A stretch of 64,000 nt of DNA. Origin: Halorussus ruber (GTDB taxonomy: Archaea; Halobacteriota; Halobacteria; Halobacteriales; Haladaptataceae). Every line of letters begins with the position of its first letter. The first letter of the stretch is position 1. Of this stretch, positions 21,663 through 30,093 are shown in pieces. The stretch spans positions 62,001-126,000 of the forward strand of contig NZ_SBIT01000001.1 of NCBI RefSeq assembly GCF_004765785.1. The letters are read 5' to 3'. The notes below the pieces were generated by a model that saw only the letters and a program-made list of their open reading frames with translations, had not been told where the DNA came from and searched no databases. The translations under genes were made by a program, and so were the position numbers.

Positions 21663-22667
21663 ATGCAAGATTACATCGAACGCGTCACCGACGGGGAGGA
21701 CCTCACGCTCGACCAAGCGCGAGAGGCGGCGACGGCCGTCTTCGAGGGTGCAACCGAGGCCCAAATCGGCGCGCTCCTCTCGGCGCTCCGGGCGAAGGGC
21801 GAAACCGAGACCGAAATCGCCGGGTTCGCACAGGGGATGCGCGACGCCGCGCGGACCATCGACCCCGACAGAGCGCCGCTGGTAGACACCTGCGGGACCG
21901 GCGGCGACGACTACGACACGATTAACGTCTCGACCACCAGCGCCATCGTCGCCAGCGGCGCTGGCGTCCCCGTCGCCAAGCACGGCAACTACTCCGTCTC
22001 CTCGTCGTCGGGAAGCGCGGACGTACTCGAGGAGGTCGGCGTCGAAGTCGAGGCCGAACCGCCCGCCGTCGAGGCGGCCATCGAGGACGACGGCATCGGG
22101 TTCATGCTCGCGCCGGTCTTCCACCCCGCGATGAAGGCCGTCATCGGCCCGCGGAAGGAACTCGGGATGCGAACCGTGTTCAACGTCCTCGGTCCGCTGA
22201 CCAACCCCGCGGGCGCTGACGCCCAAATCGTCGGCGTCTACGACCCTGACCTCGTGCCGGTCCTCGCTCGGTCGCTCTCCAAGATGAGCGTCGAGCGCGC
22301 GCTGGTCGTCCACGGCTCCGGCATGGACGAAATCGCGGTCCACGGCGAGACTACCGCCGCCGAGGTCCGCGGCGACGAAATCGAGGAGTACACCATCACG
22401 CCCGAGGACGTCGGCCTCTCGCGCCACCCCGTCGCCGACGTGTCCGGTGGCACCCCCGAGGAGAACGCCGAAGACATGCGCGGCATCGTCGAGGGAGACG
22501 TGACCGGCGCGAAGCGCGACATCATCCTCGCCAACGCCGGAGCCGCACTCTACGTCGCTGGCGAGGCCGACTCGCTCGAAGACGGTGCGCAATTGGCCGA
22601 GAAAGCCATCGAAGACGGCGCGGCGGCCGACCACCTCGAACGCCTCCGGACCACCGTGCCAGCATGA
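21663..22667 (+). CDS. trpD: anthranilate phosphoribosyltransferase
   Basis: This enzyme transfers phosphoribose from PRPP to anthranilate in tryptophan synthesis. The 334-residue protein has the PRPP-binding loop DTCGTGGDDYDTINVST (about 80-96) and KHGNYSVSSSSGSADVLE, both diagnostic of TrpD, and RTVFNVLGPLTNPA near residue 180. Length is normal. It is the first gene of trpDFEG; its stop overlaps the trpF start by 4 bases (ATGA). Confidence 0.97.
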   Translation: MQDYIERVTDGEDLTLDQAREAATAVFEGATEAQIGALLSALRAKGETETEIAGFAQGMRDAARTIDPDRAPLVDTCGTGGDDYDTINVSTTSAIVASGAGVPVAKHGNYSVSSSSGSADVLEEVGVEVEAEPPAVEAAIEDDGIGFMLAPVFHPAMKAVIGPRKELGMRTVFNVLGPLTNPAGADAQIVGVYDPDLVPVLARSLSKMSVERALVVHGSGMDEIAVHGETTAAEVRGDEIEEYTITPEDVGLSRHPVADVSGGTPEENAEDMRGIVEGDVTGAKRDIILANAGAALYVAGEADSLEDGAQLAEKAIEDGAAADHLERLRTTVPA

Positions 22668-23347
22668 CGCGGGTGAAAATCTGCGGACTCACCGCCCGCG
22701 AGGACTTGCGGGTCGCGGTCGAAGCGGGCGCTGACGCCGTCGGCCTGCTGGTGGACGTGCCGGTCGATTCGCCGCGAGAAATCGACACCCAGCGAGCGGT
22801 CGAACTCGCCGAGGCGGCCCCGCCGTTCGTGACGACCGTGCTGGTGACGATGCCGGATTCGCCGGAGCGCGCTGTCGAACTCACCAGCGCCGTCGACCCC
22901 GACGCCGTGCAGGTCCACGGCAACCTCGGCGTGGGCGACATCGCGTACCTGACCGCCAACGTGAACGCGCAGGTCCTCAAGGTCGTGGACGCCGCGGAAC
23001 CCGAGGACGCCCGGCGCTACGACGACGTGGCAGACGCGCTACTGGTCGATTCCGTGGACGAGGAGGGCGCTGGCGGCACGGGCCGCACCCACGACTGGGA
23101 GCGCACTACCGAGTTCGCCGCCGACCTCGACTCGCCGGTCGTCCTCGCGGGCGGCCTGACGCCCGACAACGTCGCCGACGCGGTTCGCTCGGTCGAACCC
23201 TTCGCCGTGGACGTCGCCAGCGGCGTCGAGCGGAGCGGTACCGACGCGTCCGAGACAGCACCCTCGACGACCGGACGTAAGGACCCGGACGCGGTCGCCG
23301 ACTTCGTGGCGAACGCGAAACGAGCGTATTCGACTCCGACACCATGA
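22664..23347 (+). CDS. trpF: phosphoribosylanthranilate isomerase
   Basis: The 227-residue TIM barrel opens MTRVKICGLTAREDL, with the catalytic Cys7 of the KICGLT motif. The later DAVQVHGN and VVLAGGLTPDNVADAV, then AVDVASGVE, with the catalytic Asp in the last strand, complete the family pattern. It converts N-(phosphoribosyl)anthranilate to CdRP. It is coupled to trpD and trpE by 4-base overlaps at both ends. Confidence 0.96.
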   Translation: MTRVKICGLTAREDLRVAVEAGADAVGLLVDVPVDSPREIDTQRAVELAEAAPPFVTTVLVTMPDSPERAVELTSAVDPDAVQVHGNLGVGDIAYLTANVNAQVLKVVDAAEPEDARRYDDVADALLVDSVDEEGAGGTGRTHDWERTTEFAADLDSPVVLAGGLTPDNVADAVRSVEPFAVDVASGVERSGTDASETAPSTTGRKDPDAVADFVANAKRAYSTPTP

Positions 23348-24969
23348 AGCCGGGACGCAAGCAGTTCGCCGACCTCGCGGGAGGCGACGACCTCTCGGTA
23401 GTCCGAATCGAAGCCGAACTCGACGTAGAGACCACGCCCCTGTCGGCCTACGCGGCGCTGACCGGGCGCTCGACCGACGCGGACGCCGCCGAGTACGCCT
23501 TCCTGCTCGAAAGCGCCGAGAAGACCGCTTCCAGCGACCCCGACGGCGCGTTCTCGGCCGAACAGTCCGGCGACCGCCACGCCCGCTACTCCTACGTGGG
23601 CTACGACCCCGACGCCGTCGTGACAGTCGCCCCCGACGAGACCAACGTCGAGTCGCTCGGCGGCCGGGCCGCCAAATTCGTCGCTGGCGACCACTCCGGC
23701 GACGCGCTCGACGCCCTACGGTCGGCCATGCCCGACGCCGAACGCCGCGGATTCCCCGAGGGCGACCGCCAGCACTTCGAGGGCGGTCTGGTCGGCTTTC
23801 TGGCCTACGACGCGGTGTACGACTTCTGGCTCGACGAGCGAGGAGTCGAGCGCCCGGAGTCCAGATTCCCCGACGCTCAGTTCGTCCTCAACACGAAGAC
23901 GGTCGCGTTCGACCACCGCGCCGGAACCGCCTCGCTGGTGTTCACGCCGCTGGTCGGCCCGGACGACGACCCCGCGGAAATCTACGACGACCTCCGGGCG
24001 GAAGCCGAGCGCGTGGCCGACCTCCTCGAATCGGCCAGTTCGCCCGAGACCGGCGGGTTCGTCTGCGAGTCGGAGACTGCTGGCCCGCGCGAGGAGTACG
24101 AAGAGGCGGTCCGCACCGCGAAGGAACACGTCCTCGACGGCGACATCTATCAGGGCGTCGTCTCCCGGAAGCGAGAGCTGAGGGGCGACGTGGACCCGCT
24201 GGGGTTCTACGACGCGCTCCGGGAGGTGAACCCCTCGCCGTACATGTATCTCCTCGGCTACGACGACCGGACCGTGGTCGGCGCGAGTCCCGAGACGCTG
24301 GTGTCGGTCCGCGGCCGCGAGGTCATGGCGAACCCCATCGCGGGAACCTGCTCGCGGGGGTCGAGTCCGGTCGAGGACCGCCGCCTCGCGGGCGAGATGC
24401 TCGCCGACGAGAAAGAGCAGGCCGAACACACGATGCTGGTGGACCTCGCTCGCAACGACGTGCGCCGGGTCAGCGAACCCGGGAGCGTACAGGTCGAGGA
24501 GTTCATGAACGTCCTCAAGTACAGCCACGTCCAGCACATCGAGAGTACCGTGACGGGGCGACTCGCCGCGGGTTCGGACGCCTTCGACGCCACTCGTGCG
24601 TCCTTCCCGGCGGGCACCCTCTCAGGTGCGCCGAAGATTCGTGCGATGGAACTCCTCGACGACCTCGAACGCTCGGCGCGCGGCCTCTACGGCGGCGGCG
24701 TCGGCTACTACTCGTGGTCGGGCGACGCCGACTTCGCCATCGTCATCCGGACCGCGACCATCGAGTCGGACGCAGATGCCTCTCCGCCGGACCGCATCAC
24801 GGTGCAGGCCGGTGCGGGCATCGTCGCCGACAGCGACCCCAGCGCAGAGTACGAAGAGACCGAGAAGAAGATGGACGGCGTGCTGACCGCTCTCGACCGC
24901 ATCGAAGAGTCGCGCAAGCGTCGTCCCACCGACCCCGACGAGACGGAAGCGCCGGGGGTGAGTCGATGA
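23344..24969 (+). CDS. trpE: anthranilate synthase component I
   Basis: The 541-residue chorismate-utilising subunit carries PIAGTCSRGSSPVEDRRLA, EHTMLVDLARNDVRRV and GTLSGAPKIRAMELLDDLE, the classical TrpE/PabB active-site blocks. DGDIYQGVVSRKRELRG, at about residue 265, is a typical core block. It makes anthranilate from chorismate with ammonia supplied by TrpG. The N-terminal LLESAEK corresponds to the tryptophan feedback site region. Overlaps: trpF by 4 bases, trpG by 4 bases. Confidence 0.96.
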   Translation: MKPGRKQFADLAGGDDLSVVRIEAELDVETTPLSAYAALTGRSTDADAAEYAFLLESAEKTASSDPDGAFSAEQSGDRHARYSYVGYDPDAVVTVAPDETNVESLGGRAAKFVAGDHSGDALDALRSAMPDAERRGFPEGDRQHFEGGLVGFLAYDAVYDFWLDERGVERPESRFPDAQFVLNTKTVAFDHRAGTASLVFTPLVGPDDDPAEIYDDLRAEAERVADLLESASSPETGGFVCESETAGPREEYEEAVRTAKEHVLDGDIYQGVVSRKRELRGDVDPLGFYDALREVNPSPYMYLLGYDDRTVVGASPETLVSVRGREVMANPIAGTCSRGSSPVEDRRLAGEMLADEKEQAEHTMLVDLARNDVRRVSEPGSVQVEEFMNVLKYSHVQHIESTVTGRLAAGSDAFDATRASFPAGTLSGAPKIRAMELLDDLERSARGLYGGGVGYYSWSGDADFAIVIRTATIESDADASPPDRITVQAGAGIVADSDPSAEYEETEKKMDGVLTALDRIEESRKRRPTDPDETEAPGVSR

Positions 24970-25595
24970 CCGCGAGCGTCGAGGGCGACCGCAGGCAGTC
25001 GCCCGCCGCCGAGGATCTGCAAGTCCTCTTCGTGGACAACTTCGACTCGTTCACCTACAACCTCGTGGAGTACACGAGCGAACACGCCGAGACGGAGGTG
25101 GTCCGCAACACGGCCTCGCTGGCCGACGTGCGGGAGGCCGACCCGGACGCCATCGTGGTCTCGCCGGGGCCGGGACACCCGGCGAACGAGCGCGACGTGG
25201 GCGTCACTCTCGACGTGTTCCGCGAGGTCAGCCCCGAGGTGCCGACGCTCGGGGTCTGTCTCGGACTGGAAGCCGCGGTCTACGCCTACGGCGGGTCGGT
25301 CGGACGCGCTCCCGAGCCAGTCCACGGCAAGGCCTTCCCCGTGGACCACGACGGGCGAGGCGTCTACGCGGGGCTGGAACAGGGGTTCCGCGCCGGTCGC
25401 TACCACTCGCTGGTTGCGACCGAGGTCCCCGACTGCTTCGAGGTGACCGCGACGACCGACCACGAAGGTGAGGAACTGGTGATGGGTGTGCGCCACCGCG
25501 AGCATCCCATCGAGTGCGTCCAGTTCCACCCCGAGAGCGTGCTAACCGCGGTCGGCCACGACGTGATTCGGAACTTCGTCCGTGAAGTGGCGTAG
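24966..25595 (+). CDS. trpG: anthranilate synthase component II (glutamine amidotransferase)
   Basis: The 209-residue class I glutamine amidotransferase has the motifs VDNFDSFTYNLVEY, VVSPGPGHP, the nucleophile Cys in LGVCLGLEA, and the His/Glu pair in VQFHPESV. The usual GHQ after the catalytic CLG is replaced by LEA. The ATG at 24966 gives a 4-base overlap with trpE and a short N-terminal extension. It is the last gene of the operon; trpC, trpA and trpB are not in the window. Confidence 0.95.
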   Translation: MTASVEGDRRQSPAAEDLQVLFVDNFDSFTYNLVEYTSEHAETEVVRNTASLADVREADPDAIVVSPGPGHPANERDVGVTLDVFREVSPEVPTLGVCLGLEAAVYAYGGSVGRAPEPVHGKAFPVDHDGRGVYAGLEQGFRAGRYHSLVATEVPDCFEVTATTDHEGEELVMGVRHREHPIECVQFHPESVLTAVGHDVIRNFVREVA

Positions 25596-26427: not shown

Positions 26428-29400
26428 ATGAGCGGTGCGGGCGAACTCACGGCCGACGAACTCACTCTCCCCATCAAGCGAACCGAAGGCGAGACGCTCG
26501 AAGAGCGGCTCACCGGCAACGCCTATCACAACATCCTCCCGGCGCGCTACCTCCGGAAGAACGCCGACGGGGACCTCATCGAGGAGCAGGAGGACCTCTT
26601 CCCGCGCGTCGCCGAGAACATCGCGCTGGCCGAGGCCGTCTACGAGGCCGAGAACCGCGACGAGGAGATTACGGTCACGCCCGACCAGCTCAAGCCCGAC
26701 CACCCTCGGCGCGACGAACTCGCCGCGGAAGTGTTCGGCAAGGGCACCACGGCCGACGACGACGCCGAAACCACCCTCTCCATCTACAACGTCAACAAGT
26801 TCGCTTACGAGACGGTGGTTCCGGACCTCCCCGACGAGATTCGAGACCACGTCGAGGACGTGCGCGAGGAGTTCCAGACGCTGATGGAGGATCTCTCGTT
26901 CATGCCGAACTCGCCGACGCTGATGAACGCGGGCGACGAACTCCAGCAGCTCTCGGCCTGCTTCGTGGACTCGCCGGGCGACGACATCACCGACATCCAC
27001 CAGACCGCCAAGGAGGCCGCCGAGGTCTTCCAGTCCGGCGGCGGCATGGGCTACGCCTTCTGGAAACTCCGACCCTACGGCGACGCGGTGGGTAGCACGG
27101 GCGGCATCGCCTCCGGCCCCATCACCTTCATGCGGACCTATGACCAGATGTGCGAGACCATCGCGCAGGGCGGTGCCCGGCGTGGTGCCCAGATGGGCGT
27201 CATGCGCGTCTCCCACCCCGACGTCATCCAGTTCATTCACGCCAAGAACAAGGACGTGAGCCTCGCGCACACCCTCCGCCTGAACGACCCCGACGACTAC
27301 ACCCACAACTCGTTCAAGGAGGCCCTCGAAGAGGCCCGCGAACTCATCGACGACGAGGGTCGCGTGCCCAAGCACCTCCGGAACGCCGCCGAGGGTCACC
27401 TCTCGAACTTCAACATCTCGGTCGGCGTCACCGACGACTTCATGGACGCGGTCAAGAACGGCGAGGAGTTCACCTTCACCAACCCTCGCACGGAGGAGCC
27501 GCACATCGCCACCGAACACACCAAGGAACTCTACGAGATGTTCGGCCTCGGCGAACACGTCGAGGTCGGCGAGGAGCTTTCGGTTCCGGCCGAACTCGTC
27601 TGGGACCGCATCGTGGACGGTGCCCACGAGAACGGCGAACCCGGCGTCATCTACCTCGAACGGGTCAACAAGGAGCACTCCTTCGACGTGGAGAAACACC
27701 CCGACCACCAGATTCTGGCGACTAATCCGTGCTTGACTGGTGATATGGAAGTCGCCGTTGCTGGTGATGAAGTGTCAGTTCCAATTTCGGAGCTTACAGA
27801 TGAGAATGAACTAGAACTGTTGGCACTGACTGATGATGGGGAAGTAGTGACTGCACGAGGAGTTAATCCACGTCTTACAAAGAAGGATGCAGACATCCTT
27901 GAATTGACCACTGATAAAGGAACAAAACTCCGCCTCACTCCAGATCATGAGGTCCAGTTGGAAAGTGGTGACTGGGTAGAGGCTCAAAACCTTGAGCAAG
28001 GTGATGAGCTTGCTTTCCACGAATCCGGAAACTGGTCTTTCACTACCGAACCCAAAACCCTCAGCGATGGTGGCGATACGCTAACTTGGTCACAAGAGAA
28101 CGGAGGCATTCCAGAACATGGGTTTGAAACAGTCTGCGTTGAATCTATTACGGAAGCCGGAACGGAAGACGTGTACGACATTACCGTTCCGAGACATCAC
28201 AACTTCTTCGCTGGCAATGTTAGTGAACAGGATGGGCCACCCCTCTTCGTCAACGTTCACAACTGCGGTGAACAGCCATTGGAGGAGTACGAGGCCTGTA
28301 ACCTCGGGCACATCAACCTCTCGACGCTGGCCGACACAGACGCCCCAGACTGGCGCGTCTGGTACGACGAACACGGCGACGAGTACGACGATTTCGAGGA
28401 GGCAGTAGACGCCTTCCTCGCCGACGCGATGGCGTGGGACGACTTCGACCACCGCATCGAGTACGGCACGCGCTTCCTCGAGAACGTCGTCACGATGTCG
28501 GACTTCCCGGTCGAGAAGATCGAGCAGAAGGTCCGCGAGATGCGCAAAATCGGCCTCGGCGTCATGGGGCTGGCCCAGCTCTACATCCAGCTCGGCGTCG
28601 AGTACGGCAGCGAGGCCGGAAACGAAATCGCTCGCCAGTTGATGCGCTATATCAACCACGAGAGCAAGTGGGCCTCCCACGAACTCGCCGAGGAGCGCGG
28701 CTCCTTCGACGAGTGGGACAACAGCAAGTACGCCGACCCCACCGAGTACCGCGAGTGGTTCGAGAAGCAGACCGGCCTCGACGCCGACAACTGGGAGGAC
28801 GGCTTCCCGGTCCGGAACCACAACACGACGACGATTGCCCCCACGGGGACCACCTCGATGGTCGGCAACACCACGGGCGGGTGTGAACCCATCTACAACG
28901 TCGCCTACTACAAGAACGTCTCCGACGACGTGCAGGGCGACGAGATGCTCGTGGAGTTCGACGACTACTTCCTCCGCGTGCTGGAGGACAACGACATCGA
29001 CGTCGAGGAGGTCAAGCAGGAGGCCCAAGACCAGATGGCGGCAAACGAGTTCGACGGCGTCGAGGGCCTCGAAACCGTGCCGGACGCTATCGGCGAGCTG
29101 TTCGTCGTGACCTCCGACCTCACCGGCAAGGAACACGCCGCAGTCCAGTGCGCCTGTCAGGAGGGCGTGGACTCGGCAATCTCGAAGACCTGCAACTTCC
29201 CGAACGACGCCAGCAAGGAGGACATGCGCGAGGTCTACGAGTACATCTACGACAACGGCGGCAAGGGCGTGACCGTCTACCGCGACGGCACTCGGTCCAA
29301 GCAGGTGCTGACGACCCGCGCCGACAACAAGGAGTTCGCCGACGAGTCCGAAGCGGCCGAGCAGTTGGTCGAGCAGATCGAGGAGGTCTTCGGCGGTATC

Positions 29401-30093
29401 GAAGGCTTCCTCGACAACGAGGACGTCCGGGCCGCCCTCGACCGCGAGGTCGAATCCATCCTCGAAGTCGCAGACGGCGAGGACGGCGAAGGTCCCTACG
29501 CCAGCAAGCGACCCCGACCCGACGTGCTTCACGGCATCACTCAGCGCATCGACACCGGGTACGGCAAGCTCTACGTCAACATCAACGAGGACGACCAGGG
29601 CCGACCCTTCGAGCTGTTCGCCAACATCGGCAACTCCGGCGGCTTCACCGCCTCCTTCACCGAGGCGCTGGCCAAGACCATCTCGACCGCGCTCCGGTCG
29701 GGCGTGGACCCCGAGGAGATCGCCGACGAGCTACAGGGCATTCGTAGCCCGAAGGTCGCGTGGGACAAGGGCGAGCAGATCAACTCCATCCCCGACGCCA
29801 TCGGCACCGCGATGCGCCGGTACCTCGACGGCGAAGTCGAGAAAGCCTACCCCCAGCAGCAGAACCTCACCGAAGTCGAGGAGGAAGTCGAAGAGGGCGA
29901 GGCCGCGGCGAACGCGCAGGCTGACACCGGTCCGGAAACCGACGGCGGCGCGGTTGCGGCCAGCAAGGAGGCCGACCAGCAGGACATCATCGACTCGGGC
30001 GAGAGTCCGGAGTGTCCCGACTGCGGGTCGCTGTCGCTGTACTATTCGGAAGGCTGCAAGACCTGCGAGTCCTGCGGCTGGAGTGAGTGCTGA
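26428..30093 (+). CDS. nrdJ: adenosylcobalamin-dependent (class II) ribonucleotide reductase with intein
   Basis: The 1221-residue precursor consists of about 1043 extein residues plus a 178-residue intein (435-612). The enzyme reduces ribonucleotides using a cobalamin-generated thiyl radical. Visible family blocks are SACFVDSPGDDITDIHQTAK, GGGMGYAFWKLRP, the active-site NPC/GEQPLEEYEACNLG (split by the intein) and NTTTIAPTGTTSMVGNTTGG. A C-terminal zinc ribbon (CPDCGSLSLYYSEGCKTCES, ending CGWSEC) carries the cysteines that re-reduce the active site. The ATG at 26428 follows ACCCACGC. No NrdB-type small subunit adjoins it, as expected for class II. Confidence 0.95.
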   Translation: MSGAGELTADELTLPIKRTEGETLEERLTGNAYHNILPARYLRKNADGDLIEEQEDLFPRVAENIALAEAVYEAENRDEEITVTPDQLKPDHPRRDELAAEVFGKGTTADDDAETTLSIYNVNKFAYETVVPDLPDEIRDHVEDVREEFQTLMEDLSFMPNSPTLMNAGDELQQLSACFVDSPGDDITDIHQTAKEAAEVFQSGGGMGYAFWKLRPYGDAVGSTGGIASGPITFMRTYDQMCETIAQGGARRGAQMGVMRVSHPDVIQFIHAKNKDVSLAHTLRLNDPDDYTHNSFKEALEEARELIDDEGRVPKHLRNAAEGHLSNFNISVGVTDDFMDAVKNGEEFTFTNPRTEEPHIATEHTKELYEMFGLGEHVEVGEELSVPAELVWDRIVDGAHENGEPGVIYLERVNKEHSFDVEKHPDHQILATNPCLTGDMEVAVAGDEVSVPISELTDENELELLALTDDGEVVTARGVNPRLTKKDADILELTTDKGTKLRLTPDHEVQLESGDWVEAQNLEQGDELAFHESGNWSFTTEPKTLSDGGDTLTWSQENGGIPEHGFETVCVESITEAGTEDVYDITVPRHHNFFAGNVSEQDGPPLFVNVHNCGEQPLEEYEACNLGHINLSTLADTDAPDWRVWYDEHGDEYDDFEEAVDAFLADAMAWDDFDHRIEYGTRFLENVVTMSDFPVEKIEQKVREMRKIGLGVMGLAQLYIQLGVEYGSEAGNEIARQLMRYINHESKWASHELAEERGSFDEWDNSKYADPTEYREWFEKQTGLDADNWEDGFPVRNHNTTTIAPTGTTSMVGNTTGGCEPIYNVAYYKNVSDDVQGDEMLVEFDDYFLRVLEDNDIDVEEVKQEAQDQMAANEFDGVEGLETVPDAIGELFVVTSDLTGKEHAAVQCACQEGVDSAISKTCNFPNDASKEDMREVYEYIYDNGGKGVTVYRDGTRSKQVLTTRADNKEFADESEAAEQLVEQIEEVFGGIEGFLDNEDVRAALDREVESILEVADGEDGEGPYASKRPRPDVLHGITQRIDTGYGKLYVNINEDDQGRPFELFANIGNSGGFTASFTEALAKTISTALRSGVDPEEIADELQGIRSPKVAWDKGEQINSIPDAIGTAMRRYLDGEVEKAYPQQQNLTEVEEEVEEGEAAANAQADTGPETDGGAVAASKEADQQDIIDSGESPECPDCGSLSLYYSEGCKTCESCGWSEC
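27730..28263 (+). mobile_element. mini-intein in nrdJ at the catalytic cysteine
   Basis: The insertion begins Cys (CLTGDMEVAVAGDEVSVPI) and ends VNVHN followed by Cys613 of the extein. Block B is LRLTPDHEVQLESGDWVEA and block F is VYDITVPRHHNFFAGN. The length of 178 residues leaves no room for a LAGLIDADG homing endonuclease. The segment is visibly poorer in G and C than the rest of nrdJ. Between block F and the terminal VHN it has about a dozen extra residues (SEQDGPPLF). The site lies directly before the radical-bearing Cys of NPCGE. Confidence 0.95.

Follow-up and report, generated by a model that had tools for sequence, protein, structure and literature searches.

A nuclease-free mini-intein ahead of the presumed catalytic cysteine of a class II ribonucleotide reductase in Halorussus ruber

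Active sites are the usual sites of inteins (PMC3359363, PMC5874633), which lie on average 8.3 Å from active-site residues according to the excerpted text of the former source, and an intein positioned at the active site of an enzyme is ordinary, an element of an already known kind. In Halobacteria, rir1 is known with a large intein, with a mini-intein and without any (Soucy 2014, PMC4071816, in the portion consulted). The Aquifex aeolicus R2 intein resembles the element reported here in lying within the active site of a ribonucleotide reductase (RNR) but, as described in the available part of PMC8772380, differs from it in interrupting a class I small subunit, between iron ligands, and in carrying a nuclease. 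No title or abstract in our literature searches (intein with thiyl radical, catalytic cysteine, same-site mini-inteins; partial coverage) describes the lineage of NrdJ mini-inteins considered below.

The window, i.e. the whole 64,000-nt stretch of the Halorussus ruber genome that was analysed, contains an nrdJ gene whose product scores 713.8 bits with the equivalog model NrdJ_Z (TIGR02504; cut-off 399.95) and is thereby assigned to that family. Its main features are as follows.

26428..30093, forward strand: nrdJ, precursor of an adenosylcobalamin-dependent class II ribonucleotide reductase, 1221 aa including the intein (open reading frame; TIGR02504, PF02867, PF00317, PF12637)
27730..28263, forward strand: mini-intein, 178 aa (intein models, empty sites in relatives, Hint fold)
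27730..27732, forward strand: Cys1 of the intein, the first nucleophile, preceded by Asn-Pro of the extein (read from the sequence; present in all 12 mini-inteins)
27937..27948, forward strand: TPDH of block B at residues 70-73 (unchanged in all 12 mini-inteins)
28042..28116, forward strand: linker joining block B to block F (residues 105-129), at the place of the nuclease domain in large inteins (predicted disordered)
28168..28209, forward strand: block F, DVYDITVPRHHNFF, residues 147-160 (D147, V148, Y149, H157 and N158 invariant in 12 of 12)
28216..28242, forward strand: extra loop, residues 163-171, flanked by the strand of block F (158-162) and the final strand (172-177) (secondary structure of the model; length survey)
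28258..28263, forward strand: last two residues of the intein, His and Asn (sequence; Ala-Asn in 3 of 12)
28264..28266, forward strand: +1 extein Cys, presumed catalytic (thiyl-radical) Cys of NrdJ (alignment to 1xje/1xjk)

The insert comprises 534 nt (27730-28263), or 178 codons, in frame with the surrounding reading frame (26428-30093). Its identification as a mini-intein, proposed in the initial annotation, is borne out by three profile models, all above their cut-offs (Pfam Intein_splicing PF14890, 57.3 bits, cut-off 35.8, E 2e-15; NCBIfam intein_Nterm TIGR01445, 34.9 bits, cut-off 24.5; intein_Cterm TIGR01443, 22.3 bits, cut-off 15.6), as well as by a predicted Hint fold and by empty sites in congeners. 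The residues defining class 1 are all in place (C1, T70..H73, H177-N178 and C+1), and the element is classified accordingly; block letters follow the scheme in PMC7765530 and PMC4031507 (both as excerpted). The AlphaFold2 model of the intein (pLDDT 80.7) has a Hint fold, with 2in0 as its best structural match (Z 20.1, rmsd 1.6 over 138 residues) and Foldseek matches to solved splicing domains at E 8e-9. The B-F linker, longer than in the other mini-inteins, has pLDDT below 50 at residues 105-114 and 118-129. Neither a LAGLIDADG nor an HNH match was found in the intein, in agreement with the initial annotation, which had noted the lack of a homing endonuclease.

The junction letters are ATNP/CLTG... 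on the N side and ...VNVHN/CGEQPLEEYEACN on the C side. The +1 Cys aligned to residue 322 of Thermotoga maritima NrdJ (1xje/1xjk), a residue that we take to be the thiyl-radical Cys. With this role granted, the intein splits nrdJ exactly before the catalytic Cys (NP/C...VHN/CGE), just as had been read from the sequence at the outset. The same early reading held that unspliced protein must be inactive; since the radical Cys would be out of place in the precursor, inactivity follows from the position of the intein and is very likely. A model of the whole precursor (pLDDT 61.4 on average, and below 50 in the stretches 282-296 and 473-488 round both junctions) was set aside for any claim on intein-extein contacts. 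Upstream of nrdJ, the window holds tryptophan biosynthesis-like genes (21663-25592: glycosyl transferase family 3, anthranilate synthase component I, glutamine amidotransferase), and an Rfam scan of the 64 kb returned two tRNAs only, with no cobalamin riboswitch upstream of nrdJ. Elsewhere in the genome, inteins were seen in genes that, named by eye from their flanks, are replication factor C small subunit, an MCM-like helicase and a polymerase-like gene (C3:173332-175341, C2:327716-329140 and C5:306714-306803, respectively).

The insertion site exists in three states among relatives. A search of the genus (18 genomes) gave nrdJ matches in 16 of the 17 other genomes, the exception being a 62% complete one (G171). 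In 14 of the 17 congeners the site is empty, the flanks joining exactly at NPC/GE with the insert absent, and the other two matching genomes are occupied, one by a 150-aa mini-intein (G114) and one by a 372-aa intein (G074). Across an order-wide sample of 392 haloarchaeal genomes, the uninterrupted site pattern was found in 316, and at least 66 (H. ruber included, among the matches listed in a protein search) have an insert at this site; one genome (G013) shows both states, and 381 of the 392 are accounted for, 11 are not. Apart from one insert cut by a contig end (G324), the remaining 65 genomes provide 66 alleles (one genome, G051, contributing two), which among the matches listed consist of 10 mini-inteins of 150-178 aa, 55 inteins of 372-373 aa and one of 350 aa with Ser1 (G243). 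Intein-free and endonuclease-bearing alleles, which the initial annotation had proposed to compare at this site, are thus both at hand: the 372-aa LAGLIDADG type is present in at least 54 of the 392 genomes and mini-inteins, the less common type, in at least 10. The 350-aa allele (L108, 5059-6108), with its Ser start, Gly-Asn end and LAGLIDADG_3 domain, is a third intein type at the NrdJ site, and the genome with two alleles has two intein-bearing nrdJ copies about 13 kb apart (L099 and L109), the second with a shorter frame.

The H. ruber intein belongs to a small haloarchaeal mini-intein group confined to the NrdJ site. We aligned 12 members, i.e. the ten of the order sample, one from Halorubrum laminariae (L111) and one from an uncultured member of Halobacteria (L114). 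A search of named records returned 14 loci, with 7 mini-inteins at the NrdJ site and 7 other inteins; further named carriers are Halorubrum alkaliphilum, Halohasta litorea and three MAGs. Cys1, the block B TPDH, the Asp and His of block F and the terminal Asn are invariant in 12 of 12 members, and a nuclease match was found in none of them. Three (genomes G133, G099 and G015; loci L056, L081 and L054) end in Ala-Asn in place of His-Asn. The Halorubrum laminariae locus and that of Halohasta litorea (L116) share 8450-nt stretches with 99.8% identity, a sign of either recent transfer or a labelling or assembly mix-up.

The additional residues that the initial annotation had pointed out ahead of the terminal HN, after block F, were confirmed and turned out to be a trait of the group. 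Counted from the His of block F up to the terminal Asn, the segment measures 21 residues in H. ruber and 16-21 across all 12 mini-inteins, compared with 11-12 in 57 other distinct cellular motifs surveyed (long form in 0 of 57, by a pattern requiring the block F His and hence counting only inteins that have it), so that the mini-inteins carry 5-10 extra residues at this place. We had considered the long loop to be unique to them; this was rejected, as it also occurs in a viral intein (L161; 1 of 27 viral motifs in one count, 30 of 31 having 11-13 residues in another) and in a second one (L176), which the survey pattern had missed and which is one of about 16 viral motifs inspected by eye.

The origin of the group bears on another early suggestion, namely that the nuclease was lost after transfer. 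A specific form of this idea would derive the mini-intein, by decay, from the 372-aa LAGLIDADG intein with which it shares the insertion site. Profile comparisons speak against it: with the profile of the mini-inteins, the ten mini-inteins score 189-242 bits, gyrB- and rtcB-type inteins 67-88 and inteins of several genes at most 63 (gene names read by eye), the same-site 372-aa inteins being among the latter at about 48-59. In profile-profile scores of the H. ruber intein alone, the 372-aa inteins are the lowest (85), after the other mini-inteins (204), gyrB (131), rtcB/phage (119) and a viral same-site group (94). The C-termini are also unlike (HNFFA...NVHN in the mini-intein, HSFVANGLVVHN in the 372-aa type). 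In the first tree (48 rows, including a random draw of 16 from the 55 large alleles) the mini-inteins lie on one side of a branch (88/80), apart from a starred clade (96/94) in which the 372-aa inteins are joined by L121, a bacterial intein of the same site. On the other hand, AU tests leave trees with a single clade of mini-inteins and 372-aa inteins unrejected, both with L121 (p 0.117 in the first tree, 0.286 in a reduced one) and without it (p 0.052 and 0.173). Since the mini-inteins need two changes rather than one in the reduced tree (four long rows removed, stricter column filter), we regard the two types as no more than probably separate lineages, and descent from the 372-aa type as unlikely. 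The suggested loss after transfer finds no support here: with all 12 mini-inteins nuclease-free, any loss predates the arrival of the H. ruber copy.

That the intein is far more AT-rich than its host gene, as first noted from the sequence, is correct (GC 0.485 against 0.638 in the flanks; GC3 0.427 against 0.907), and its GC3 is the lowest of the 66 inteins compared. The use of this contrast as a sign of transfer stands less well, for 65 of the 66 NrdJ-site inteins are more AT-rich than their own flanks and such a bias is by itself weak evidence of transfer. Lateral arrival of the H. ruber intein is nevertheless suggested by other features of the sequence, namely the 14 empty congeners, the divergence of the intein from that of G114 despite similar exteins, and a footprint at the junctions. 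The H. ruber and G114 inteins are 43% identical in residues, while the DNA flanks are 89-93% identical, with pS of 0.85 (saturated) in the intein and 0.36 in the flanks (the flanking values, from 900 nt, being rough as some flanks may hold other inteins). The footprint consists of two candidate tracts:

27724..27726, forward strand: codon -2, AAT, possible donor tract (synonymous codon absent from the 14 empty congeners)
28267..28281, forward strand: codons +2 to +6, possible donor tract (GGT, CCA and TTG absent from the 14 empty congeners)

The synonymous codons -2 AAT, +2 GGT, +5 CCA and +6 TTG of H. ruber are thus private with respect to all 14. Such codons make up 4 of 13 near the junction and 3 of 189 farther out (Fisher p 3e-4, an optimistic value as the near zone of -6 to +7 was set after inspection of the codons), and with each of the 14 congeners taken as focus in a control, 0-2 of 13 were private near the junction. 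The congener with the 372-aa intein (G074) has three private codons at places where H. ruber has them too (-2 AAT, +2 GGT, +6 TTA; 3 of 13 near, 1 of 186 far), so that this locus (L059) shares private junction positions with H. ruber although the inteins differ, and G114 has 1 of 13 near and 3 of 186 far. A general test for A/T-ending codons near the junction in 66 intein and 30 empty alleles was weak (p 0.17; mini-inteins alone, p 0.02), and the footprint is therefore argued for H. ruber and G074 only, where it suggests short donor tracts beside the junction. Matches to the H. ruber intein in phage (11 records) and plasmids (2) are all distant and provided no donor, and among 25 of the 60 loci found in viral contigs with the mini-intein alignment the lineage is absent.

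Considering what was observed (the anatomy with its intact catalytic residues, the empty sites, membership of the group and the pattern of divergence), we favour a selfish mini-intein that splices constitutively, was laterally acquired and is held by purifying selection (probability about 0.78); what we infer beyond these observations is splicing itself, precursor inactivity and the route of arrival. The intein would excise itself from precursor NrdJ shortly after it has folded, along the canonical class 1 pathway (an acyl shift at Cys1, then transfer onto Cys+1, cyclisation of the last Asn and a final acyl shift that gives a peptide bond). Because Cys+1 would be the radical cysteine, only spliced NrdJ would work and the host would be unable to lose splicing, so that purifying selection would maintain the intein although it has no nuclease. 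It may have arrived as a ready-made mini-intein from another haloarchaeal nrdJ, with gene conversion carrying only a few flanking codons along. The intein dN/dS values of two close mini-intein pairs, 0.21 (G339-G390, dS 0.37) and 0.22 (G133-G099, dS 0.62), are as would be expected if splicing is needed; the H. ruber copy, its dS saturated in most comparisons, is outside these pairs.

The H. ruber genome encodes a second class II NrdJ of 575 aa (G000:C9:219451-221175; L002, L203), with an uninterrupted site (ATNPCGEVPL). This enzyme is rare: at E 1e-150, 10 of the 392 genomes in the order-wide sample have it, and within the genus it was found in H. ruber only. A PF02867 search, which would have matched a class I large subunit, returned the two NrdJ only, and no class III RNR (NrdD) was found in this genome. 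One could imagine that an inactive or decaying insert blocks the interrupted NrdJ and that the second, intact one sustains the cell; given that all catalytic residues of the intein and the NrdJ frame are intact, and that the 9 other mini-intein carriers of the sample have no second NrdJ at the threshold used, this is highly improbable. With a second, intein-free NrdJ, blocking the intein-bearing gene need not halt dNTP supply, which weakens the picture of a single gate.

A conditional switch, deemed conceivable in the initial annotation, would require that splicing follows salt, redox or substrate state and thereby controls dNTP synthesis at the catalytic Cys, possibly by contact of the long loop with the active site of NrdJ. 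The placement at this Cys and the retention of the loop in 12 of 12 mini-inteins, with its lack in the 57 other cellular motifs, are compatible with such a role, and salt-dependent haloarchaeal inteins have reportedly been published (Reitter and Ciragan, both 2016). A disulphide between Cys1 and Cys+1 is also possible, a trap of this kind being cited for other inteins (PMC5874633, PMC4031507, as excerpted). However, the sequence carries no sign of regulation, the loop varies in letters and in length, and the second NrdJ could bypass the gate. Haloarchaeal cells are permanently high in salt. Together with the general rule of intein proximity to active sites quoted at the beginning, these points make a switch improbable. 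Bolder than constitutive splicing of an acquired element, and in our judgement improbable, is a scenario in which two unrelated inteins colonised the catalytic-Cys site and the nuclease-free one evolved an enlarged F-G hairpin that adapts its splicing centre to the active site of NrdJ (splicing coupled to the extein), spreading e.g. via repair, from the mini allele, of breaks made by the LAGLIDADG enzyme of the other lineage at the shared empty site.

The locus offers a natural three-way contrast (empty, LAGLIDADG and mini) at one DNA site, which may be useful for tests of the persistence and spread of nuclease-free inteins; it also lets one test the effect of the long block F-G loop on splicing beside a radical cysteine.

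Compared with described systems, the NrdJ-site inteins resemble the haloarchaeal rir1 alleles (PMC4071816) as RNR inteins of Halobacteria with a patchy distribution, with and without nuclease. In its consulted portion, that study regards rir1 mini-inteins as large inteins of the same allele that have decayed; those of the NrdJ site seem instead to form a lineage apart. The NrdJ site may be that of rir1-b, -g, -k, -l or -m. The 372-aa LAGLIDADG inteins share the identical insertion point (NP/C...HN/CGE) but differ in LAGLIDADG_3 (one member scanned), in a short block F-G segment and in lower profile similarity to the mini-inteins. The nearest splicing domains outside the NrdJ site by profile are gyrB/rtcB-type inteins of haloarchaea and phages, which differ in residing in other genes, in larger size and in the C-terminus HNFALxxGVFVHN (HNH giving a sub-threshold match in the one rtcB intein scanned and none in the one gyrB intein scanned). 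Finally, the NrdJ-1 split intein (PDB 8ubs; PMC13123727, as excerpted) shares with the H. ruber element an NrdJ host and the Hint fold (Z 19.0 to the H. ruber model) but is split and fast and lies one residue later, between native exteins NPC/SEI with a +1 Ser, and the radical Cys is therefore not the nucleophile of NrdJ-1.
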